DNA of 64,000 bases. It comes from Bacteroidales bacterium. Lineage in GTDB: Bacteria > Bacteroidota > Bacteroidia > Bacteroidales > F082. Under the pieces are notes generated by a model. It was not told the origin of the DNA. It saw nothing but the letters and a program-made list of their open reading frames with translations, and searched no databases. Location: positions 19,383 through 83,382 of the forward strand of contig JAEFAE010000006.1 in the NCBI GenBank assembly GCA_016291135.1. Reading direction: 5' to 3'. The position numbers were made by a program, and so were the translations under genes. This document shows, piece by piece, positions 1,657 to 44,282 of the stretch (within the stretch, counting starts at the first letter, position 1; each line of letters starts with the position of its first letter).

Positions 1657-4600
1657 TTATTTCTGCTTCTTACTTAACGCCATGCTGGGGCTATTAAGCA
1701 ATATGAGTCCGGCCATGTCACCTAAGCGCTGGACCCTCTTAAAGTCGAGGTTGTGGTTGTAAACATAGCTCCTAACCCTTGCCCTAACAATGTTCAACAC
1801 CACTGGATTGTTTTTATGTTTAGAAATTATTTCCTGAAGATCACTGTCTTTTAGTGGTTCATAATAACTTTTGATGGTAAAGGTGATAACATCAGCGGCA
1901 GGTGTCTTTATTATTTCTTTAGACACCTTGTCGTAAATTTCGCTGATACCTGCAGTGCCAACAGAGGCTGATAGATTTGCGAACATATCGTAACAAAGCC
2001 TCAATAGCATCATATGGAGCAGATTCCTAATTTTATCTGTCAAGATCTGTTTGTCCATGTCAGATACGTTGTCATTTTGCTCAAGTATAGCATTCACTAT
2101 GGAATCACGATCTTTTTCAAGTAAGTTTGTAAAGAAAGACAAAACCCTGAAGGTTGAAAGATAAGCATCTGTCAACAAATCCGCTATCTGGTCTTTTCTT
2201 AAGATATCTCTTTGGTTTTTAATTACCTGGCCTATTATCCTGTTTGCTTTGATTGTGTCATTGATTTCGCGTAAATCTTTGTCCTTTTCAAAGTCTTCAT
2301 CGGTTGGGACAAACGTCTTTCCTGCTTCTGTCGCTCTTTCTTCCTCGTCACGTTCCTTTAACAATTTCTCTCGCTCTTTTCTGTGGTCCACGTCGATACG
2401 AAGGACATCCTTCTTTACTTCTTGAACAAAATCGGCAAGCTGTTTGTAAAGTTCGTCCCCTTGGTCAAGAGTAATGGGCGTTAAATTTTCAAACGGGAGC
2501 CAGCTAGCGAATTTTATTTCCTCGATAAGAGAAAGGTCTTTGTCAAGATATGCCATGAATACTAGGATATTGCCATTCTCTTCCTTGTATAGTTTTTCAC
2601 ATAGACACTTGATCTCTTTTTTCTTTTCGTCACCATCCAAAGATACAATATGTTTTGCAACAAGATAGAAATAGATGTATTTGTAAGTGAATGAGTAAAC
2701 TCCAGATTCTTTCTCGACTAAGAGTCGCGCATTGGACAAAATAGCAAGAAGTCTATCTTTTTCATAAGGCATATTCCATGTTTGGACATATTCATTATAG
2801 GATTGCACATACCCTTTTTCACCATCTACATCATAGTTATATCGGAATGAATCCTTTTTATTCTTATATAATGAATATGCCATTCCTGAAAGGAATTGGA
2901 TGATGCCGTCAAAGTTAGATTGGGGAACATTTTGCTTATGTAGAGCTGACATCAGCAAACTCTGATATAAGTTGGCATAAGAAGTGGGAGCTACGTTATA
3001 CGACTCAAGAGTTTCGTTCATTTCTTGAAGGAGAATCAACAAGAAAATAGGATTTGAGGGTAATAGCTGTTTCCCCAAGACATTAGAGAACTGCTCAAAG
3101 ATAATCTTTATCTTGTCCAATGCCTCATTGGTGTCGATACTGAATTTGTCCGCTCCAAGAAGAAGCCATCTTTCTATCAATTTGTTCCGTTTAAGATGGC
3201 CCAATTGATGTATCAAATATCTTTTGATTCTGTCATCTTTTCTGCTTTTCTGCAAAAGCCCTATTATCGAGTTGTCGGTATTAGAGGTGACTACTATGAA
3301 CTCATAATTCTCCAAAACGTTCTTAAAGGCTTCGGCGATGCCGTCCTGATTCAGTGGTGATCTGTCAATATTGTCAATAAAAACGCATCGCTTTGCTTTC
3401 TCAAACTGTAAAAATTGATCATAGTCTATCTTGTCGGCAACATATTGTTCTTTATATGCTTCTTTCAGAATGCCTCCGAGTTTTACGACTTTCACATTCT
3501 GACCTTTTACAAACAGTGGATATATTCCGTTTTGGTAGCATTGTCTAATCAGCATCTTTAACAATGAAGTTTTCCCGGACTGGGGATCGCCTTCGATGAA
3601 AATGACTTGGCCCTCGGAACAAGTATTCATTAGATTCTCTGCATCCACATATGTATACATCCTTTGATTATCCAAGCATGACATGGGTTCCAAATCTGGA
3701 TAGACATAAATATCATCTAATGTAAGGTTTTTCTTGACGGGATGTTGAATAGGTGCGTCAAGTCTTGACAAGAAATCATTGTGGGTGGGGGTAAACGACA
3801 AAGAGTGTTTTTTAAACATAATGGTCTGCGGTGTCAAATCGTCCTGATAGGAGGAACCGTCAGAATCCAGCACTATTTCAGAAGGGCTAAGCGTCATCTC
3901 CTCTGTTTCGTCATCAAGTACTGAGACCATAAACGACTGTTCTCTGCCTTGTTGTAGGGAATTGCTCTCTAGATAGAGTATTTTATCAATATTTTCCAGA
4001 TTTGAAATCACTTTTATGCCCCTTTGGTGTTCATGCCCGCACATCAGCACATTCGAGGTATGTTCAATGTGATCTTCAAAAGTCCTTTGATTGTTGTTGG
4101 CTGTTCGTGTAGAAAGCCAACCTGTTTTATGATGGAATACCGATATGACTACATCCTTTCTCGTGTCGTCAATGGCATTATTATATAAGAAGTAGTTTTC
4201 GGGAAGGAGAAGTGACTGTGGCTGCTCGTTGATAGTTGACATCAAAGCGGTGTTGTAACAATGGAATATCAGATTGCATCGGTCATTAACAGCAATGGTT
4301 TTTGAATAAGAAACGCATGGCGAAATAGGGAAGCCGTTAAGTTTTGCAACGAAATCCCAAAAGTCTTTCTGCGGTTTCAAACAGATTTGAATAAAATCCT
4401 CTTCTTCAACAACATCGCGATTCTTAATTGTATCGATGATAACGGGTCTAACCGGATCGTCTATATTGAAATTGATATCATGGTTACCTGGCACAAATAC
4501 GTAATCAAAACCATCGAGGGACGCCTCTTTCTGCAGCTCTGTTTTCAAATCATTAAAGAACTTTTCGGCTAAACTATAATTTGCAACTTTTCCTTTATCG

Positions 4601-4749
4601 ATGATGTCGCCTGAAACAACGACAACAACCTTGTTACAAGTGTTAATGATAGATTTGCAACTATGAGCAATGGCTATAGCGTTCTTAATAATAAAATCAT
4701 CAGCCGACGATATGTGCAGGTCTGACATTTGTATGATTCCTATTCTCAT
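1657..4749 (-). CDS. calcineurin-type metallophosphoesterase fused to STAND-like P-loop NTPase
   Basis: Start moved from the track's 4986 to the ATG at 4749, giving 1030 residues. Translation then opens directly with the first phosphoesterase motif, and the discarded extension would run through the promoter and the divergent holin gene. Motifs in order: SDLHIS (about residue 10), SGDIID (about 50), PGNHD (about 89), an HH pair, and GHEH (about 236). These are all the metal ligands of a calcineurin-like phosphoesterase. A P-loop GDPQSGKTSLL (about 388) and Walker B-like CVFIDNID (about 458) follow, then roughly 500 mainly helical residues with no visible repeat. This effector-NTPase-sensor layout is that of STAND defence proteins (Avs and NACHT types); a defence role is inference. 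The gene is much richer in A+T than its neighbours, suggesting transfer. The substrate of the phosphoesterase cannot be told from sequence. Confidence 0.8.
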   Translation of the reverse strand: MRIGIIQMSDLHISSADDFIIKNAIAIAHSCKSIINTCNKVVVVVSGDIIDKGKVANYSLAEKFFNDLKTELQKEASLDGFDYVFVPGNHDINFNIDDPVRPVIIDTIKNRDVVEEEDFIQICLKPQKDFWDFVAKLNGFPISPCVSYSKTIAVNDRCNLIFHCYNTALMSTINEQPQSLLLPENYFLYNNAIDDTRKDVVISVFHHKTGWLSTRTANNNQRTFEDHIEHTSNVLMCGHEHQRGIKVISNLENIDKILYLESNSLQQGREQSFMVSVLDDETEEMTLSPSEIVLDSDGSSYQDDLTPQTIMFKKHSLSFTPTHNDFLSRLDAPIQHPVKKNLTLDDIYVYPDLEPMSCLDNQRMYTYVDAENLMNTCSEGQVIFIEGDPQSGKTSLLKMLIRQCYQNGIYPLFVKGQNVKVVKLGGILKEAYKEQYVADKIDYDQFLQFEKAKRCVFIDNIDRSPLNQDGIAEAFKNVLENYEFIVVTSNTDNSIIGLLQKSRKDDRIKRYLIHQLGHLKRNKLIERWLLLGADKFSIDTNEALDKIKIIFEQFSNVLGKQLLPSNPIFLLILLQEMNETLESYNVAPTSYANLYQSLLMSALHKQNVPQSNFDGIIQFLSGMAYSLYKNKKDSFRYNYDVDGEKGYVQSYNEYVQTWNMPYEKDRLLAILSNARLLVEKESGVYSFTYKYIYFYLVAKHIVSLDGDEKKKEIKCLCEKLYKEENGNILVFMAYLDKDLSLIEEIKFASWLPFENLTPITLDQGDELYKQLADFVQEVKKDVLRIDVDHRKEREKLLKERDEEERATEAGKTFVPTDEDFEKDKDLREINDTIKANRIIGQVIKNQRDILRKDQIADLLTDAYLSTFRVLSFFTNLLEKDRDSIVNAILEQNDNVSDMDKQILTDKIRNLLHMMLLRLCYDMFANLSASVGTAGISEIYDKVSKEIIKTPAADVITFTIKSYYEPLKDSDLQEIISKHKNNPVVLNIVRARVRSYVYNHNLDFKRVQRLGDMAGLILLNSPSMALSKKQK

Positions 4750-4806
4750 ATTTTGATTTTTATATAACTGATGCGCTTGAGGCTCTTTGAATTGGAGAAT
4801 ACAATG

Positions 4807-4814
4807 CAAAGTTA
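4807..4814 (-). promoter_or_regulatory. -7 box for the metallophosphoesterase-NTPase gene
   Basis: On the minus strand this reads TAACTTTG, a match to TAnnTTTG, 58 bases upstream of the chosen start at 4749. It lies just before the divergent holin start and supports both start choices. Confidence 0.5.
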
Positions 4815-4819
4815 TTACT

Positions 4820-5326
4820 ATGGACTGGATTAAAATCAAAGAAATGGCCGTAGTTGCAGTACTGGCTTTCATCATCGTTCTCATCGCCATGATGATAGAC
4901 CTCGCCAGCGGCATCAACAAAGCGAAACAACGTGGCGAAGTCAGGAGCTCATGGGGGCTTAAACGGACATTGAGCAAGTTCATCATGTACGAGGGCGGAA
5001 TGCTGATTGCCTTCGGGGTGGACGCACTGATCTACTTTTCAAGGCTTTTTGAGTTGTTCAGGTTGAGCGTCATCGACGGTGTCCCAGTGGTCACCTGTCT
5101 TGTCGGTATCTTCCTGCTCATTGTGGAGTTCAAGTCGATACGTGAGAAGTCCGACAAAAAGACGAAGAAGGATTTCTCGGAAGCAGGCGAAATCATAACG
5201 AAGCTGCTGGAGAGCAAGACCTTCAAGGACGCTTTCGTGAAGGCCATTGAGACGCAACAGCAGGCACAGGCGCATGGGGCGCATGATGATGAAGACATCA
5301 AGGGAATGACGGAGGAACTATCATGA
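4820..5326 (+). CDS. phage-type holin family protein
   Basis: A 168-residue protein with three predicted membrane segments (about residues 8-28, 50-70 and 80-100) and a charged cytoplasmic tail. The segment [16 protein letters not shown] after the first helix resembles the D-(Y/L)-(I/A)-(T/S)-G stretch of Bacteroidetes phage holins. Holins form inner-membrane lesions that release the endolysin. The track's start at 4787 is possible but overlaps the minus-strand promoter, so the internal ATG at 4820 is preferred. It overlaps the SEC-C gene by four bases (ATGA) and heads a four-gene cassette with a muramidase, which supports a lysis role. No T4- or lambda-type motif can be named. Confidence 0.7.
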
Positions 5327-5520
5327 GCAAGGAACTGAGAAAAGTGCAGGTCGCCCGTGTTCCTGGCGACTCCAAGGACGGCGCGATCCATGTGAAGAAG
5401 TACGGCAGGAACGAGCCGTGCCCGTGCGGCAGCGGACTTAAAGTGAAGCAGTGCTGCTGCGGCAGGGAGAAGCAATACTTCTACATCAAGAAAAAAAGTA
5501 CAAACACAAAAACTGAATAA
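5323..5520 (+). CDS. SEC-C motif miniprotein in lysis cassette
   Basis: A 65-residue protein whose centre, [16 protein letters not shown], is a SEC-C zinc-binding motif like the one at the C-terminus of SecA, where CxC...C(C/H) binds zinc and contacts SecB or ribosomes. Start overlaps the holin stop (ATGA) and has GGAGGA upstream, indicating translational coupling. There is no signal peptide. Stand-alone SEC-C proteins are known, but placement between a holin and an endolysin is notable. It might act as an adaptor to SecA or the translation machinery, or as a regulator of lysis; both ideas are inference. The next ORF starts two bases after its stop. Confidence 0.75.
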
Positions 5521-5522
5521 CC

Positions 5523-6173
5523 ATGGCGAAAGTTGAAAAACTCATTCCCATCATCATCAAGTGGGAAGCCGGGATAGACCCGAACAAGGAGGAAAACGCC
5601 GGGCTGACGGCCAAGGAGCTGTTCGAGAAGGCGAGGAAAACAGGTTACGGCAACGACCCTGTTGACAGCGGTGGTGCTACGATGGTAGGTGTCACGCTCG
5701 ACACCTACAAGGCGTACCGCAAGAAAAAGAAGAAGTCAGTCCCGGCTATCAAGGAATTGAAGGCCATCACCTATGAGGAGTGGCTCGACATCCTGAAAAC
5801 GATGTTTTGGGATCGGATGCAGGCAGACCGCATCGAAAACCAGTCGATTGCCAACCTATGTGTCAACACGGTGTGGGGTACTGGCCCAGGATACATCAAG
5901 AAAATACAGGGTGTGCTCGGTGTCCGGCAGGACGGCATCGACGGTGACATCACCTTGGGGAAAATCAACGGCTGGAATCCGCAGTCGATGCTGTTCGACA
6001 AGCTGTGGGCGCGCCGCAAGAAATTTTTCGAGGATACCGTTGCGTCAAGCATAGCCGACTACGAACGCAAACTGGGTCGCAAGTCAACGCTTCAGGAGCA
6101 GCTGAAATACACCAAGAAACGCTTTTTGAAGGGCTGGCTCAACAGGCTTAACGACTTCAAGTTCGAGGAGTGA
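5523..6173 (+). CDS. GH108-type N-acetylmuramidase (endolysin)
   Basis: A 216-residue cytoplasmic lysozyme-like protein. Near the N-terminus is KWEAG with the glutamate expected for catalysis in glycoside hydrolase family 108. It is followed by DPVDSGGATMVGVT, close to the family's D-x-GG-x-T-x-x-G-(I/V)-T signature. The second half, IQGVLGVRQDGIDGDITLGKING, matches the C-terminal peptidoglycan-binding part seen in this family. It would cleave the MurNAc-GlcNAc backbone after the holin opens the membrane. No signal peptide, as expected for a holin-dependent lysin. Its TGA overlaps the start of the next gene (TGATG). The assignment is strong; whether it serves a phage, satellite or tailocin is unknown. 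Confidence 0.85.
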   Translation: MAKVEKLIPIIIKWEAGIDPNKEENAGLTAKELFEKARKTGYGNDPVDSGGATMVGVTLDTYKAYRKKKKKSVPAIKELKAITYEEWLDILKTMFWDRMQADRIENQSIANLCVNTVWGTGPGYIKKIQGVLGVRQDGIDGDITLGKINGWNPQSMLFDKLWARRKKFFEDTVASSIADYERKLGRKSTLQEQLKYTKKRFLKGWLNRLNDFKFEE

Positions 6174-6784
6174 TGGAGAAAGAACTGAAACACATACTCA
6201 CGTTTTTTCTGTCGGCGATCCTGCTGATGTTCGTCTCTGGTGTGCTCGGGGGCATTATCGGCTACAACAGGGGTAGCAGCCGTCCCATGCCGGAGCCTCT
6301 GTTGCCGGACACCGTGAAGATTTTCGACACGGACACCTGCTGGCTTTTACCGCCGGAGGATTCCGTGACGAAGAAGGAAGACAAGGTTGTGCAGGTGCCG
6401 CTCGACGATGTAGAGGTAGATTCCGTCGTTGATTCGGTTCGGGTCACTCTGCCGTTCGAGCAGCACTTCGCCAGCCTCGACAGCGTGGCTGACATTTGGT
6501 ATAGCGGCTATCAGGTAAGGATAGACAGCGTGGTCGTTTACCGTCACAGGACAACGGAAATAATCAATCAGCCGTACCCGTATGAGGTTTCGAGGATGCC
6601 GAAACTGACAGCAGATATTGGTGCCTCCGCGTTTTATTGCGACGGCAGGGTGAATCCTTGTCTTATCGGAGAAGTTCGCCTAAACCAGCCGAAAACAACC
6701 TTCTCCGTGTACGGAACGGTTGACCACGAAGGAAAGTGGTCTGTCGGGGTTGGCGTAAGCTACCGAATAACCATCGTGAAATGA
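6173..6784 (+). CDS. single-pass membrane protein in spanin position
   Basis: Start set at the ATG at 6173, which overlaps the muramidase stop as TGATG (the track uses the preceding GTG). The 203-residue protein has one N-terminal membrane segment (about residues 10-30, glycine-rich at its end), a polar acidic middle and a C-terminal part predicted to be beta-rich. In Bacteroides prophages a similar protein (I believe annotated as DUF6808) often follows holin and endolysin genes. Its position as last gene of the cassette and its N-in/C-out topology suggest a spanin-like role linking inner and outer membrane, but no spanin motif or lipobox is visible, so that is inference. Confidence 0.6.
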   Translation: MEKELKHILTFFLSAILLMFVSGVLGGIIGYNRGSSRPMPEPLLPDTVKIFDTDTCWLLPPEDSVTKKEDKVVQVPLDDVEVDSVVDSVRVTLPFEQHFASLDSVADIWYSGYQVRIDSVVVYRHRTTEIINQPYPYEVSRMPKLTADIGASAFYCDGRVNPCLIGEVRLNQPKTTFSVYGTVDHEGKWSVGVGVSYRITIVK

Positions 6785-6787
6785 CGG

Positions 6788-7252
6788 CTACTGGACGCGG
6801 ATGTAGATCTCGGTTCCTGCGTAGTTGCTGATTGTGGTCTCTGTGGTGTCTATCACGTAGTCCTTGGCGTTCAGGCCTGAACTCCAGTAGGTGGCGGTGT
6901 CGAAGGGTTCCTCACTTACATAGGCTGACAACAGCAGGTTGTTTTTGTCCAGGCTTTCGCGGATGGAGTAAGCCCAGCACCTTTGGTAGATGGTGTCAGA
7001 ACGGTGCCATACGGAGTCGAGGCCAAGACGGTCGGAGCCGTTGTAGGTAAGCATATTGGTGGGAGTGGTGAAGTCAATCGCATAGTAATACCGCTTGCTT
7101 GGATCGAATGAACTTTGCTTATAGCGTTCGTACCTGCGTCCAGTGAAGTCGAAAGTCCTTTGAACAGGTTCACTCTCCTTGGCACACGAGGCAAGGGCGA
7201 GGATGATTGAAGCGACAAGCGCGAGTGAGCGTAAAGACATAATTCCTTTCAT
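6788..7252 (-). CDS. lipoprotein, unknown function, coupled to integrase
   Basis: A 154-residue protein with a signal peptide ending in the lipobox ALASC (Cys about residue 23). The mature domain has alternating polar/hydrophobic strands and several aromatic residues (YYYAIDF, YWSSGL), suggesting a small beta-rich fold; I recognise no family. Its start overlaps the integrase stop by four bases, so both are likely on one leftward transcript. Convergent with the lysis cassette (3-base gap). Such cargo lipoproteins are frequent on Bacteroidales elements. Confidence 0.6.
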   Translation of the reverse strand: MKGIMSLRSLALVASIILALASCAKESEPVQRTFDFTGRRYERYKQSSFDPSKRYYYAIDFTTPTNMLTYNGSDRLGLDSVWHRSDTIYQRCWAYSIRESLDKNNLLLSAYVSEEPFDTATYWSSGLNAKDYVIDTTETTISNYAGTEIYIRVQ

Positions 7253-8395
7253 TTCGTTTTTTCTTTTTCCCCGTCGGCAACGGCGGGGTTTTTTATGAGT
7301 ATCGGTATCTTGGCCACGGCCTCCTGCTTCTTCCTGTCTATGATCTTGTTGGCGTATATCTGCGTCGTGGAAAGCTCGCGGTGGCCAAGGAGCTTCGAGG
7401 TTGTGTATATGTCAACCCCTAACGAAAGCATCATCACGGCGAACGTGTGGCGCGCGGAGTGGAATGTGAGTGGCTTGTTTATCCCGACGGACTGCGCCCA
7501 ACGCCTGATGGCTGGGTTGGTGCTTGCGTTGTAGTGGAACTTGCGGAACACCTTGTCGCCGTCGCACGTCCTCTCTCCCATGATCTGCCTCGCCTGTTCG
7601 TTGATGTCGAGGTATTCAATGTTCCTTAGTCTTGCGCTGCCGGAACACGATCCGAGTGAAGCCGTCCTCCTCAACGATTTCTCCCCATGTCAACGCTTCT
7701 ATGTCCGACTTGCGAAGACCCGTGAGGCAGCTGAACAGGAAGGCGCGCTTGAAGTCCTTGTTTAGCTTGGTTTCCGACAGCCTCTGCAGTTCCTCTATCG
7801 ACAGGTACTGCCTGACGCTTTCCGCGCGGCCAACGACACTAACGCCTATCGTGATGTCGGTGGCGAGCAGCCCTTCCTTTTGAGCCTCGTGCATGAAGGT
7901 TTTGAAGATGTTGCAGTACGAGTTGAGCGTTGTCCTCGAAAGCGTTTCGCCTTTGCGGTTCCTGTTTGGCGTTGTTGCGAGGTAGTCGAAGAATGCCTTC
8001 ACGTCTGCTGTGGTTGTCTGCTGTAGAATGAAGTAGTCGCCGAAAAACTCCTTTGCCCTTATTGCCACGTTGCGGTACATCTGCCGGGTGCCCATTGTCT
8101 TTTTTTCTACAAGGCTTTCTATGTATGCGGTGAGGAACGTCTTCTGACGCGAGGCGAATCCGTATGTCCCGTTCTGTATCTCGACTATGCGCCTTGCCTT
8201 GACTGCCTCTGCGAGGCGCAGGGTCTCTTTGTTACGCTGCTTCGCGTTTTTGTCACGCTCGGGAATCAGGTATAGCCGCAGGAACTCATACGACCGCCTG
8301 CCGTTGCAGTAGATGTCGAGGTAGAGGGAAACGCCGCCGTTCGACAGTTTCTTCTGCCTGATATGTACTGGCTCCTTGATTCTTGCGTTTTTCAT
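7249..8395 (-). pseudogene. tyrosine integrase, interrupted by a one-base frameshift
   Basis: Two track ORFs are one gene. The first (8395 down to about 7616, 259 aa) carries an N-terminal SAM-like/arm-binding part, a core-binding domain and the first catalytic Arg in CLTGLRKSDIEAL. The second frame (to 7249) begins after the break with NIEYLDINEQ and carries HSARHTF, LGHRELSTTQIY: the His, Arg, His and Tyr of the active site. Around 7622-7630 the minus strand reads AAGACTAAGGAACATTGA; removing one G would give KTKNIEYLDI, the expected continuous sequence. So either a real inactivating insertion, an assembly error, or (less likely) programmed frameshifting. The intact product would be about 380 residues, of the Bacteroidetes mobile-element integrase type. 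It is transcribed away from the replication operon. Confidence 0.85.
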
Positions 8396-8785: not shown

Positions 8786-9163
8786 ATGTTAGACACCATC
8801 ACCTTTGACCAACTGCCCAAGGCCGTCGCCGACATCCTCGACGGCATCGCGGAGCTGAAGAGCATCTGCAACGACATCCGTGACAAGGACTCCGGAAAGG
8901 ATGTTTACCTCACCGTGGAGGAGCTTTGCGCCTACCACCCCGACCACCCCTCGCAACAGACCGTGCGCCGCTGGAAACGGCTCGGCTACTTCCCCTATTA
9001 CAAGGACGGGGAGACGCGCCGCGTGAAGTTCAAGAAATCGGAGATAGACGCTTGGATTGCCTCCAGCAGGCACATGTCACGCCATGAGCGGAACGCGCTG
9101 CACGATGCGCAGATCCTTGCCAGACGGCGACAAATGGAGATAGGAGGGCTTGACGATGAATGA
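8786..9163 (+). CDS. helix-turn-helix DNA-binding protein (excisionase/AlpA-like)
   Basis: A 125-residue protein. Residues about 47-95 form a MerR/excisionase-type winged helix: a helix starting YLTVEELCAY, then QQTVRRWKRLGYFPYYKDG and the wing RRVKFKKSEIDAWI, the usual 'primer-binding/HTH_17' pattern of Bacteroidetes elements. The N-terminus is a predicted coiled coil and the C-terminus is basic. First gene of the rightward operon; it overlaps the second HTH gene by eight bases. Likely roles are excision control or replication initiation; the sequence does not separate these. Confidence 0.75.
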   Translation: MLDTITFDQLPKAVADILDGIAELKSICNDIRDKDSGKDVYLTVEELCAYHPDHPSQQTVRRWKRLGYFPYYKDGETRRVKFKKSEIDAWIASSRHMSRHERNALHDAQILARRRQMEIGGLDDE

Positions 9164-9365
9164 AGACCTGAAGGGTTATCCCGTGCTGTTCGACTGGATA
9201 GAGCTGTCGGACCTGCTGCTGATGCTTCACCTGACCAAGAACACCCTGAAGGAGTGGTGCTCGGAGGGTGGGTTGAAATGCAGCCGCATCAAGAACAAGA
9301 CCTATTTCCTGCGCCAGGACATTGAGCGCTTCCTCTACAACCACTACCAAACCTACAAGCCATGA
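9156..9365 (+). CDS. second small helix-turn-helix protein
   Basis: Start moved from the track's TTG (9150) to the ATG at 9156, because the strong AGGAGG at 9142-9147 is correctly spaced from it. The 69-residue product has a WIELSDLLLMLHLTKNTLKEWCSEGG helix-turn-helix followed by a short wing and YFLRQDIERFL, again of the excisionase/HTH_17 type. It overlaps both neighbours, so it is translationally coupled to the first HTH gene and the VirE-N gene. Paired small HTH proteins before a VirE/DUF3987 module are typical for Bacteroidales elements. Confidence 0.7.
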   Translation: MNEDLKGYPVLFDWIELSDLLLMLHLTKNTLKEWCSEGGLKCSRIKNKTYFLRQDIERFLYNHYQTYKP

Positions 9366-10024
9366 ACACCGACAAGAGCAACGCCCCGGCGATGTATTTC
9401 TGGGGCATACCCGACAGCTACGCCGTGAAGCCTTCGGCGCAATGCGACCTGAAGAGACTACCCGGCTTCAGCATCTTCAGGCGATCCATCACGAACAAAT
9501 ACCCCTACCAGGTGGTGAACCTGATCGATGTGTTTAACTACATCATCAGTGACTACGCCAAAGACCGCACCTGCGAATACCGCTCGATCAAGGACGAGCG
9601 GTACCGCCGACAGTACAAGTCGGACAAGTTCGACTACTGCACCTTCTCCGGCATCTTCACGGTGCGCATCGACAAGGCCATCATCCAGCACTCGGGCTAC
9701 CTCTGCCTCGACTTCGACCACCTGAAGGATGTGGAGGCCGTGTTTGAGCAGCTGAAGCAGGATCCTTATTTCGAGACGCTGCTGCTGTTTCGCAGTCCCT
9801 CGGGCGACGGTTTGAAGTGGGTGATCTCGTTCACGGACTCCTTCTATCGATACGGCAACGATGGGGAGTCGTTCGGGGAATACCAGGTGCGGTTTTTCGC
9901 TAGCCTCTACAACTACATCTTCAACCACTATGGCGTGGAGGTTGACCGCCACTGCCGCAACCTCTCCCGCGCCTGTTACCTGCCGCACGACGCGGAAGCC
10001 TACCTCAATCCCTCGCTGCTATGA
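9362..10024 (+). CDS. BT4734/BF3469-family protein (VirE N-terminal domain), primase-like
   Basis: A 220-residue protein consisting of the domain usually labelled 'VirE N-terminal' or BT4734-like. Landmarks are FSGIF.VRIDK, the acidic pair in CLDFDHL, and LLFRSPSGDGLKWVI. This resembles archaeo-eukaryotic primase-type folds, where the DxD-like aspartates bind metal. It overlaps the next gene by four bases (ATGA), and in many Bacteroidetes the same domain is fused to the DUF3987 protein encoded next. A role in priming replication of the element is likely by family association, not shown here. Confidence 0.75.
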   Translation: MNTDKSNAPAMYFWGIPDSYAVKPSAQCDLKRLPGFSIFRRSITNKYPYQVVNLIDVFNYIISDYAKDRTCEYRSIKDERYRRQYKSDKFDYCTFSGIFTVRIDKAIIQHSGYLCLDFDHLKDVEAVFEQLKQDPYFETLLLFRSPSGDGLKWVISFTDSFYRYGNDGESFGEYQVRFFASLYNYIFNHYGVEVDRHCRNLSRACYLPHDAEAYLNPSLL

Positions 10025-11787
10025 AGAAAGCCGTCTTCAATCCCGATGACTGGAATGCCGCCGTGGCTTCGTCGGCCAGGCACACGGATGTTGAAGCTTT
10101 GGTGTGTGCCGTTGAAGCCTCGGGCATCGACATCACGGCTGCCTATTCCGACTGGTTGGCCATCGGCTTCGCCTTAGTGTCGGAACTGGGCGAGGAAGGG
10201 CGACCGCTCTTCCATCGCCTCAGCCGCTTCTATCCGGGTTATGACATGGCCGTGGCCGACCGGCAATACACGGCCTGCTTGCGTGACGGGAGCCGAGAAA
10301 TCAGCATCGCCACGCTGTTTTATATCGCAAAACGTCATGGCGTTTCCTCATTTTCCTCAAGTTCCTCAACTGGTTGGGTTGAGGAACTTGAGGAAAACAA
10401 CAATGGTTGTTCTTGCGTTTCGACTGAAAATGATACTCCAAAGTCTTTGCCAACCTTTTCGCAATCAGTCCGTTTGGACCTTCCGGCCATCATGCAACGC
10501 ATTGTTTCCGATTCCGTTTCAGATGTGGACGCAGACATCCTAATCCTTGGCTCTCTTGCCGTTTTTTCGGCTTGTATCCCCAATGTTTTTGGCGTATATG
10601 ATCGCCGAGAAGTTTTTGCCAACCTCTTTCTTTTTGTCACTGCCCGTGCATCAGCAGGCAAGGGGCGTCTCTCATTGTGCCGTCATCTTGTGGCTCCGAT
10701 ACACCAGGCGTTACGTGACAAATATCACAGACAGATGAAGAAGTTTGAAGCCGCCCAAGCTGCTTTTGTTGCCAATCGTAAAAACGCCCTTGCTGTGCAG
10801 CCTAAGGAACCGCCGTTCCTCACTCTGTTTGTTCCTGCCAACAGCACGGCCACGGTGGTTTATCAAACGCTTGCCCAGAACAATGGTGTCGGTCTCCTGT
10901 TCGAGACCGAAGGCGATACCCTGGCCAATGCCTTCAACTCTGACCTTGGCAACTATTCAGACGGTTTTCGAAAGGCTTTCCATCATGAATCCATTTCCTA
11001 CCTCCGCAAGAAAGACCATGAATTCGTCGAGATTGTCAAACCTAAGTTCTCCGCTGTTCTTTCGGGTACGCCTCAGCAGATATTCAACCTCATTCCTGAT
11101 GCCGAAAACGGTCTTTTCAGCCGCTTCATTTTCTATACCATGCCTACTGAACTTGTCTGGCATGACATGTTCGCTTTCACGGGCGTTTCTACGGCTGATG
11201 AGCAGTTTAAGCAAATAGGCCGTGACTTCTATTCTTTTTTGAAGACGTTTTTCAAGAATCCAGTGCAGTTTACCCTTAGCCGGGTGCAGCAAGTCCAGTT
11301 CAACGCTTTCTTTGAGGCCACACAGCTTCGCTACGCTCGGTTCTTCGGTGATGACATCATTGCGTCTGTCCGCCGTCTTGGCCTTATTCTATTTAGGTTT
11401 GCGATGATTCTTTCGGTTTTGCGTCTCATCGATGAAAAGCCTTTTTCCTCTCAAAAGGTGCGGGAAGGGCTCGTGTGTGCGGATGCGGATTTCTCCACTG
11501 CTTTGGCAATGGTCAAAGTCCTGTTGGTTCATACAAGTTCTGTTTTTCAGGCTTTACCCCGAAAGCAGCCATCGTATAAAGCACTCAAAGGTAGCAAGCA
11601 GTTTGCCGATACTTCGCGGTCAAAGTTCTTTGAGGCTTTGCCAGCTTCGTTCAATCGTTCGACTTATCTCGCTATCGCCCAATCTTATGGCATCTCTGAC
11701 AAGACTGCTGAACGATATATTGCGGGGCTTTGCAAGTCAGGGCAGCTGGAGCATCCGGCCAACGGGCAATACAATAAATCTTCTTGA
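10021..11787 (+). CDS. PriCT-2 + DUF3987 replicative helicase/primase-like protein
   Basis: A 588-residue protein. Residues about 20-105 match a PriCT-2-type primase C-terminal helix bundle (YSDWLAIGFAL...RDGSREISIATLFYIAKRHGV). After a Ser- then Glu-rich linker comes the DUF3987 domain with P-loop-like TARASAGKGRL and acidic Walker B-like LLFETEGD, and a basic winged-helix end. Such proteins replace primase-helicases on Bacteroidetes elements. It is coupled to the VirE-N gene (ATGA overlap), and together they resemble a split version of a common fusion. The linker coding DNA forms a perfect 20-bp hairpin (separate entry). Base composition is more AT-rich in the last two thirds. Confidence 0.75.
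   Translation: MKKAVFNPDDWNAAVASSARHTDVEALVCAVEASGIDITAAYSDWLAIGFALVSELGEEGRPLFHRLSRFYPGYDMAVADRQYTACLRDGSREISIATLFYIAKRHGVSSFSSSSSTGWVEELEENNNGCSCVSTENDTPKSLPTFSQSVRLDLPAIMQRIVSDSVSDVDADILILGSLAVFSACIPNVFGVYDRREVFANLFLFVTARASAGKGRLSLCRHLVAPIHQALRDKYHRQMKKFEAAQAAFVANRKNALAVQPKEPPFLTLFVPANSTATVVYQTLAQNNGVGLLFETEGDTLANAFNSDLGNYSDGFRKAFHHESISYLRKKDHEFVEIVKPKFSAVLSGTPQQIFNLIPDAENGLFSRFIFYTMPTELVWHDMFAFTGVSTADEQFKQIGRDFYSFLKTFFKNPVQFTLSRVQQVQFNAFFEATQLRYARFFGDDIIASVRRLGLILFRFAMILSVLRLIDEKPFSSQKVREGLVCADADFSTALAMVKVLLVHTSSVFQALPRKQPSYKALKGSKQFADTSRSKFFEALPASFNRSTYLAIAQSYGISDKTAERYIAGLCKSGQLEHPANGQYNKSS
10351..10397. repeat. perfect 20-bp inverted repeat inside the DUF3987 gene
   Basis: Left arm TTTTCCTCAAGTTCCTCAAC (10351-10370), 7-base loop, exact reverse complement at 10378-10397. 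It encodes the flexible linker between the PriCT-2 and ATPase domains. Confidence 0.85.
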
Positions 11788-12033: not shown

Positions 12034-12288
12034 TCAGTTTATTAAGGCCTCGGCATCGCTATCGATGTCTGGGGCTTTTTTGTTGAGGAGCAAGAGCAAT
12101 TGTCGGGATTCGTTGAGAATAGGCTCTCGCTCTTCGAGAATTTTAGCCGTTTCCCGGATGCAATTTTGCACGGTTTCGTCGGAGGGATCACCGTCAAGGA
12201 GCTTGTCGATAGCGGCCACTCTCTTGTCGATGTCGGCAATTTGCGCGTTCAATTGTTTCAGGCGTTGAATTATCAGTTTCTTGTCCAT
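12034..12288 (-). CDS. small coiled-coil protein, unknown function
   Basis: The track start at 12339 is extended; the internal ATG at 12288 begins MDKKLIIQRLKQLNAQ and gives 84 residues with continuous heptad-like hydrophobic spacing (IADIDKRVAAIDKLL, ILEEREPIL). It is convergent with the preceding operon (10-base gap). A minus-strand -7 box lies about 210 bases upstream. Small coiled-coil proteins at element ends are common; no function can be assigned. A chance ORF is possible because the reverse strand is also open. Confidence 0.45.
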   Translation of the reverse strand: MDKKLIIQRLKQLNAQIADIDKRVAAIDKLLDGDPSDETVQNCIRETAKILEEREPILNESRQLLLLLNKKAPDIDSDAEALIN

Positions 12289-12500
12289 GACTTGATGGTT
12301 TTCTTGTGGCAAATAAAGAAGGCGCAGACTATGCCGCAACCATTGTCAAAAGGCTCTGGTAAACCCTACAAGTATGGAAACGACCAGCCCACGCCTATGG
12401 CGCAGGCCTTATCGTTCGGTCTCCACTTGTTGAAATTTACCAGATTTCTTTGACTAGGAAACGCGAGCGTAAAGCCTTATCGTTATGTCTTATATGGGTA

Positions 12501-12508
12501 CAAAAGTA
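12501..12508 (-). promoter_or_regulatory. minus-strand -7 box in element end
   Basis: Reads TACTTTTG on the minus strand (TAnnTTTG). It points toward the small coiled-coil gene about 210 bases away. Confidence 0.35.
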
Positions 12509-12614
12509 AGACTTTTCTGTGAAAGGGAGAATTTTTGTGGTTTTTGGAGGGTTTTTGTGCGGGAAGGGTGTGAAAGTGAGCGGTTGTGAGCAGGTGGTGA
12601 GGTTGAGCGAGGGC

Positions 12615-12715
12615 GTGTCAACGTGTCAACGGGCGTGTCAACACGGGTGTTTGTTGTCGAAATAATTATCATGAGTGGCCATAAAAATGGGATTTGGTTG
12701 ACACATGGTTGACAC
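12615..12715. repeat. five GTGTCAAC octamers, three direct and two inverted
   Basis: GTGTCAAC occurs at 12615, 12623 and 12635 on the plus strand. Its complement GTTGACAC occurs at 12697 and 12708. The clustering within 101 bases, 72 bases from the tRNA 3' end, resembles integrase arm-type sites or replication iterons. Confidence 0.8.
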
Positions 12716-12736: not shown

Positions 12737-12769
12737 GAAAAATCCCTAATTGACTGGGAATCAATTAGG
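12737..12769 (-). terminator. hairpin after tRNA-Arg, terminator or recombinase core site
   Basis: Arms CCTAATTGA and TCAATTAGG (9 bp, perfect) flank a 7-base spacer. On the minus strand the stem is followed by GATTTTTCTT, as for a Rho-independent terminator of tRNA-Arg. The 9-7-9 geometry also fits a tyrosine-recombinase core site. Confidence 0.55.
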
Positions 12770-12786
12770 AATGTGTGGATTGATTG

Positions 12787-12858
12787 TAGCCCCACTAGGA
12801 CTCGAACCTAGATTTAAAGTTTAGGAAACTTCCGTTCTATCCCTTGAACTATAGGGCC
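12787..12858 (-). tRNA. tRNA-Arg (anticodon CCU)
   Basis: Folds as a 72-nt tRNA: acceptor GGCCCTA/TGGGGCT with a G-U first pair, D stem GTTC/GAAC, anticodon stem GAAGT/ACTTT with loop TTCCTAA (anticodon CCU, codon AGG), T arm CTAGG-TTCGAGT-CCTAG. CCA is not encoded. Its 3' end faces the repeat-rich end of the integrative element. Confidence 0.9.
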
Positions 12859-43643: not shown

Positions 43644-44282
43644 ATGAAAAAACTTGCAATGCTCATTCTGGCGGTGGTCTCCTTGGTGACCGCCTCCTGC
43701 TGTGGCGACAAATGCACCGACCAAGCCGCTGGCAAGAACAACAACGAAACTGCTATGAATACCACGATGAACGACCTGCTCACGCGTCGTAGCGTGCGCA
43801 GCTACACCGACGAAGTGCCTCCCATGGAGGTGATTGAAGAGATCTGCAAGGCGGGTACCTACGCACCCACAGGCATGAACCGCCAGGCTCCCATCATCCT
43901 TGCCGTCACCAACCGTGAGGTGCGCGACAAGATGAGCCAACTCAACGCCGCCGTGTTTGGCATGGACAGCGACCCGTTCTACGGCGCCCCGGTGGTGCTG
44001 GTGGTGCTGGCCGATACCACCGCTGCCATGACCTGGAAAGAGGATGGCTCCTTGGTGATGGGCAACTTGTTGAACGCCTGCCACGCCAAAGGCCTGGGCT
44101 CCTGCTGGATCCATCGCGCCAAAGAGGTTTTCGAAACCGAAGAAGGCAAGGCCATCCTGCGTGATCTGGGCATCGATGACACCAAATACGTGGGCATTGG
44201 CAACTGCATCCTGGGATACACCGCCGGCGACTATCCGGAAGCCAGACCGCGTAAGGAAAACTACGTGTATTGGATTAAATAA
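43644..44282 (+). CDS. nitroreductase-family flavoprotein with lipoprotein signal
   Basis: Start set at 43644 (the track's 43617 overlaps the promoter box). The 212-residue product opens with MKKLAMLILAVVSLVTASC, a lipoprotein-type signal with Cys about residue 19, then a linker. It continues with the nitroreductase domain: LLTRRSVRSYTDEVPP (FMN phosphate-binding Arg/Ser), APTGMNRQAPIILAV, and GLGSCWIHRAKE near the end. Members normally are cytoplasmic NAD(P)H-FMN reductases. An internal ATG (MNTTMNDLL) could make a cytoplasmic form. Export of a flavin enzyme is unusual and is discussed as a finding. Confidence 0.8.
   Translation: MKKLAMLILAVVSLVTASCCGDKCTDQAAGKNNNETAMNTTMNDLLTRRSVRSYTDEVPPMEVIEEICKAGTYAPTGMNRQAPIILAVTNREVRDKMSQLNAAVFGMDSDPFYGAPVVLVVLADTTAAMTWKEDGSLVMGNLLNACHAKGLGSCWIHRAKEVFETEEGKAILRDLGIDDTKYVGIGNCILGYTAGDYPEARPRKENYVYWIK

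Follow-up and report, generated by a model that had tools for sequence, protein, structure and literature searches.

An octamer array beside tRNA-Arg(CCT) in a Bacteroidales genome, read as predicted integrase arm-type sites at the ends of a tRNA-targeting island family

Results and Discussion

An octamer array beside a tRNA gene

We analyzed a 64,000-nucleotide stretch of a Bacteroidales genome (hereafter, the window). Five exact copies of the octamer GTGTCAAC lie within positions 12615-12715, at 12615+, 12623+, 12635+, 12697- and 12708-, so that all five copies in the initial annotation were borne out in place and orientation. The window contains nine octamers in total, compared with 2.6 expected from shuffled sequence, and none of 100 shuffles reached nine or more. 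Genome-wide, there were 94 copies of GTGTCAAC in 2.62 Mb, against 37 of the same pattern read backwards, and no second place with five octamers inside 101 bp was found across the 2.62-Mb genome. The inverted pair in its exact 11-bp register forms a 19-bp sequence, GTTGACACnnnGTTGACAC, which occurs only twice in the genome: at 12697-12715 and at 44113-44131 of another contig, C22. The features discussed here are the following.

8786..9365, + strand: two small HTH_17 proteins, excisionase-like candidates
9362..10024, + strand: BT4734-like primase-type protein
10021..11787, + strand: PriCT-2/DUF3987 putative primase-helicase of the island
12034..12285, - strand: small coiled-coil-like protein gene kept at the island end (83 aa from ATG; no Pfam match)
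12387..12553, + strand: non-coding segment of the island end (most ends of related islands match it at 82-99% identity; Rfam gave no match)
12615..12642, + strand: three direct GTGTCAAC octamers (12615, 12623, 12635), predicted inner arm-type sites of attR
12697..12715, - strand: inverted pair GTTGACAC-ATG-GTTGACAC in 11-bp register, predicted arm-type pair of attR
12738..12772, - strand: Rho-independent terminator-like stem-loop with a U run, reading out of the tRNA (z -3.2)
12786..12800: attR core GTAGCCCCACTAGGA, 15 bp, the same as the attL copy on C22 and the empty site of relatives
12786..12858, - strand: intact tRNA-Arg(CCT), the integration target
C22:42517-44016: intact tyrosine integrase, 500 aa

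The open reading frame of the coiled-coil-like gene extends to 12339 from an upstream TTG, and the conserved stretch at 12387-12553 could be an RNA or a replication origin. An Rfam scan of the array region returned the tRNA only, and using the octamer motif as a text query in the literature returned only noise. The DUF3987 gene contains a perfect 20-bp inverted repeat (10351-10397), and runs resembling it, TTTTCCTCA, recur near the array in relatives.

Farther from the array, phage-like lysis genes (a holin-like, a GH108 endolysin-like and a DUF6808 protein) occupy 4787-6784, and no other phage structural genes were seen near them. Two more proteins match candidate defence families and are possibly island cargo: an ATPase/DUF234 protein at 305-1621 (PDC-S27) and a calcineurin-like phosphoesterase with a STAND-type NTPase at 1657-4986 (PDC-S60). 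The scan of island proteins turned up no genes for conjugation or mobilization. The window also has a tyrosine integrase of its own (7249-8395), split by a frameshift and with a combination of arm and SAM families that differs from that of the cognate integrase; it is probably a relic of another element. The initial annotation had proposed footprinting with the repaired integrase; the window's enzyme is not the cognate one, which is intact on C22.

An island end at tRNA-Arg(CCT)

The octamer array lies in attR, the right-hand end of a genomic island that occupies tRNA-Arg(CCT). No second copy of the tRNA 3' end was present on the window's own contig, and the copy was found on C22. There, the core copy directly adjoins xth, and the octamer pair lies between the core copy and the integrase gene, at 164 bp from the former and 115 bp ahead of the integrase start. 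A search for the same octamers at the other element end, which had been proposed from the window alone, thus recovered the pair beside an integrase.

The junction sequences are attL = CTGAAGTAGCCCCACTAGGAATCGAG and attR = GATTGTAGCCCCACTAGGACTCGAAC. In three relatives (G023, G004 and G020), the empty site reads TTGAAGTAGCCCCACTAGGACTCGAAC: xth touches the tRNA, and porZ follows. The xth side of attL and the tRNA side of attR together make up attB around the common core GTAGCCCCACTAGGA, and therefore the island sits between xth and tRNA-Arg with its ends on different contigs. By this attB logic, applied across metagenome-assembled contigs, we infer that the insert would be a single island, with a tandem of two islands as a possible arrangement. 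The locus shows a restored tRNA, a 3' fragment at the far end and an empty site in relatives, the marks by which tRNA-targeting islands are recognized. The terminator stem-loop is brought by the island end, and its position between the pair and the tRNA is kept in relatives at other tRNAs.

The inverted pair is constant across related islands

We followed the pair in two ways. The motif-first search compared the 19-bp pair pattern with 100 genomes, including 40 other families. It gave 47 matches in 23 of the 100 genomes, all from one genus; there were no matches in the 40 other families, and the reversed-pattern control gave none in the 100 genomes. By place, 15 pairs lie at integrase starts, 22 at the 3' ends of one of six tRNAs, and 10 elsewhere. 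Judged by eye, nine of these last ten resemble ends with integrase loss, truncated, tandem or contig-edge ends, or ends with a terminator and no tRNA, and the tenth (L139) has no clear core.

The unbiased test began from the integrase family, gathered by protein similarity alone in the species collection (21 loci, 55-99% identity). The pair lies 114-130 bp upstream of the start codon in 21/21 of these homologous integrases. When 22 integrase ends were aligned, all 16 octamer columns were invariant, compared with 36 of the 233 other ungapped columns. By genome, an integrase of 65% identity or more is accompanied by the pair in all 13 genomes that have one. In remote integrases, at about 30% identity, the interval from the integrase's own core to its start contains no pair, and two of them lie in tandem behind a pair that belongs to the end of a neighbouring island. 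Separately, we observed tandem islands at one tRNA in three loci (L148, L144 and L150), where the octamer end abuts a remote (30%) integrase at a common tRNA-Lys core, or a second island core.

Related islands occupy tRNA-Lys(CTT), Lys(TTT), Glu(CTC), Glu(TTC) and Leu(CAG), which gives six targets with Arg(CCT). At their tRNA ends, direct octamers come first and the inverted pair next; after an interval of usually about 30 bp, the terminator stem-loop and the tRNA 3' end follow. The initial annotation would have been contradicted by an absence of the octamers from tRNA-adjacent ends of related elements; these ends were examined and carry the pair. G020 has a complete relative of 45.7 kb, its two ends in matching orientation on a single contig, with genes for type I restriction and McrBC between them.

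The distance from the core to the pair is also constrained. At the integrase end, it is 153 or 163-165 bp, values one helical turn apart. Most tRNA-end distances are 84-90 bp, and the outliers are about 78 and 97-99 bp. A looped nucleoprotein complex would be expected to accommodate shifts of about one helical turn.

The direct copies behave differently from the pair, and the description of all five octamers as one symmetrical array therefore held only in part: the inverted pair is fixed, whereas the direct copies differ in number and position among relatives, from none to three at shifting places 31-106 bp before the pair. In G036 (L071), the nearest relative, a single direct copy stands where the window has three, so two of the three stem from a 20-bp indel relative to G036. 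This indel lends some support to reading the octamers as functionless repeats that arose by chance or by local duplication. Such a reading does not account for 47 exact pairs confined to one genus, no reversed matches and a pair beside all 21 homologous integrases. We give it practically no weight; a chance origin is refuted for the pair, and one or two direct copies may have arisen in this way. Elsewhere in the genome, three GTTGACAC octamers form a 19-bp tandem repeat beside another DUF3987 gene, with no tRNA (L004, contig C23, 8800-8845). The octamers at C23:8800-8838 were not considered further, being a local tandem repeat with no adjoining tRNA that is missing from the four homologous loci checked.

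The octamers follow the integrase rather than replication genes

The initial annotation had left the choice between integrase arm-binding sites and iterons. As iterons or an origin, the octamers would be bound by the BT4734/DUF3987 primase-helicase or by HTH proteins and would serve to replicate the excised island. Repeats next to replication genes are typical of iterons, and in the window island, as in several related ones, DUF3987 is situated about 0.8 kb upstream of the array. However, the same pair occurs at the integrase end, far from replication genes, and G020 has its DUF3987 gene inverted with respect to the array. Among the 34 genomes that clearly match DUF3987, 16 have the pair, as against 13/13 with the integrase, and several genomes have the pair and no DUF3987 match (G004, G013, G016, G042, G045 and G058, among others); the octamers thus follow the integrase. 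DUF3987 homologues without a cognate-type integrase are mostly without the pair, and across elements the repeats do not track the replication protein as iterons should. We consider iterons very unlikely. The arm-site half of the initial proposal stands, on the pair at both ends, its placement between core and integrase and its fixed distances, while the iteron half does not.

The cognate integrase on C22 matches the catalytic family PF00589 and, just above the cut-off (23.4 vs 22.6 bits), the arm DNA-binding family PF17293; no Pfam match was obtained for its core-binding region. The catalytic residues R344, K368, H449, R452, H475 and Y485 are invariant. Comparison between clades gave 79% identity for the arm domain and 80% for the catalytic domain, with 56% for the core-binding region, and in the integrase tree each of the five tRNA targets with at least two integrases forms one clade. 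This pattern is expected if the arm site stayed constant while the core target changed. One member of the tree set, L170, has an in-frame stop codon. The integrase had no match in viral_contigs, relatives in plasmid and phage records were all below 60% identity, with full-length ones at about 31-33%, and a profile search of solved structures found nothing. An AlphaFold model of the integrase was of too low confidence for further use (mean pLDDT 65, with residues 1-65 below 50).

A predicted arm-site mechanism

Arm-binding recombinases use their N-terminal domain to recognize arm sites close to the site of recombination (PMC8138268, PMC2951348). Judging from sequence comparisons, the octamers are very probably arm-type sites that the island's tyrosine integrase would bind through its N-terminal arm-binding domain. 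A short repeated motif lies on both sides of the attP core, the cognate integrase has an arm-binding domain by a weak match (PF17293), and motif and integrase co-occur across the 21 loci and 13 genomes above. The C22 integrase would then be the protein that binds the octamers.

In the excised circle, attP would run from the direct octamers through the inverted pair, the terminator and the tRNA core, and then over about 164 bp to the second pair and the integrase gene. Integrase molecules would bridge the arm octamers and the core sites to form an intasome, and the island would enter the 3' end of tRNA-Arg(CCT), restoring the tRNA and supplying a new terminator. A conserved stretch between the core and the pair, TTATTTAGAnnGATAAnAAATT, may be a putative site for a bending protein or an excisionase.

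In most loci, a TAnnTTTGCA -7 box follows the integrase-end pair at a distance of about 17-20 bp, and therefore the integrase may restrain its own gene. Because the pair sits near -33 of this Bacteroidales-type int promoter, the bound integrase would presumably dampen its own transcription. The same overlap with the int promoter could be taken to mean that the octamers are operators for an island regulator (e.g. an HTH_17 excisionase or repressor) instead of sites for the integrase. There is precedent in the KplE1 IntS/TorI system, where recombination proteins repress int from att sites (PMC2951348). Yet the tRNA end has no gene to regulate and still keeps the register of the pair and its distance from the core, and the direct copies give this end extra sites. 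An excisionase site would also not be expected as pairs in both arms. We regard separate operators as highly improbable; dual use of the octamers by the integrase itself is compatible with the arm-site reading.

Implications and comparison with known systems

The 19-bp tag GTTGACACnnnGTTGACAC marks island ends in a rumen and gut Bacteroidales genus, and therefore islands can be delimited even in fragmented metagenome assemblies. The family is also a natural experiment in which the arm site and arm domain are fixed and the core-binding region and tRNA target diverge, so that it can be tested directly whether arm and core specificity are separable. More speculatively, and in our judgment rather doubtful, one arm code across the integrases of six tRNA genes might let islands swap or share recombination machinery. 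If so, the integrase of one island could bind the arms of another and help degenerate islands that lack an integrase to move, and the common code would let tRNA genes accumulate islands in tandem.

Arm sites of tRNA islands are a known kind of element; this genus-restricted island family and its 19-bp tag are apparently undescribed. Enzymes of the IntCTnDOT subgroup (CTnDOT, NBU1) are Bacteroidota tyrosine integrases with an N-terminal arm-binding domain and subterminal arm sites, and NBU1 also enters a tRNA 3' end (PMC8138268 and references therein). The C22 integrase resembles them in host and in its predicted arm domain and arm sites; it has a Bacteroidales host and matched arm and catalytic domains, and a core-binding region without a Pfam match.

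Phage lambda has several direct and inverted arm sites flanking the att core and a bivalent integrase. The island would share this working principle, for which there is a general statement (PMC2951348), and differs in sequence, spacing and host. Islander-type islands have an intact tRNA at one end and a displaced 3' fragment at the other, which mark their end points (PMC4383910). The end marks of the family described here are alike, but here one arm motif is common to six tRNA targets.
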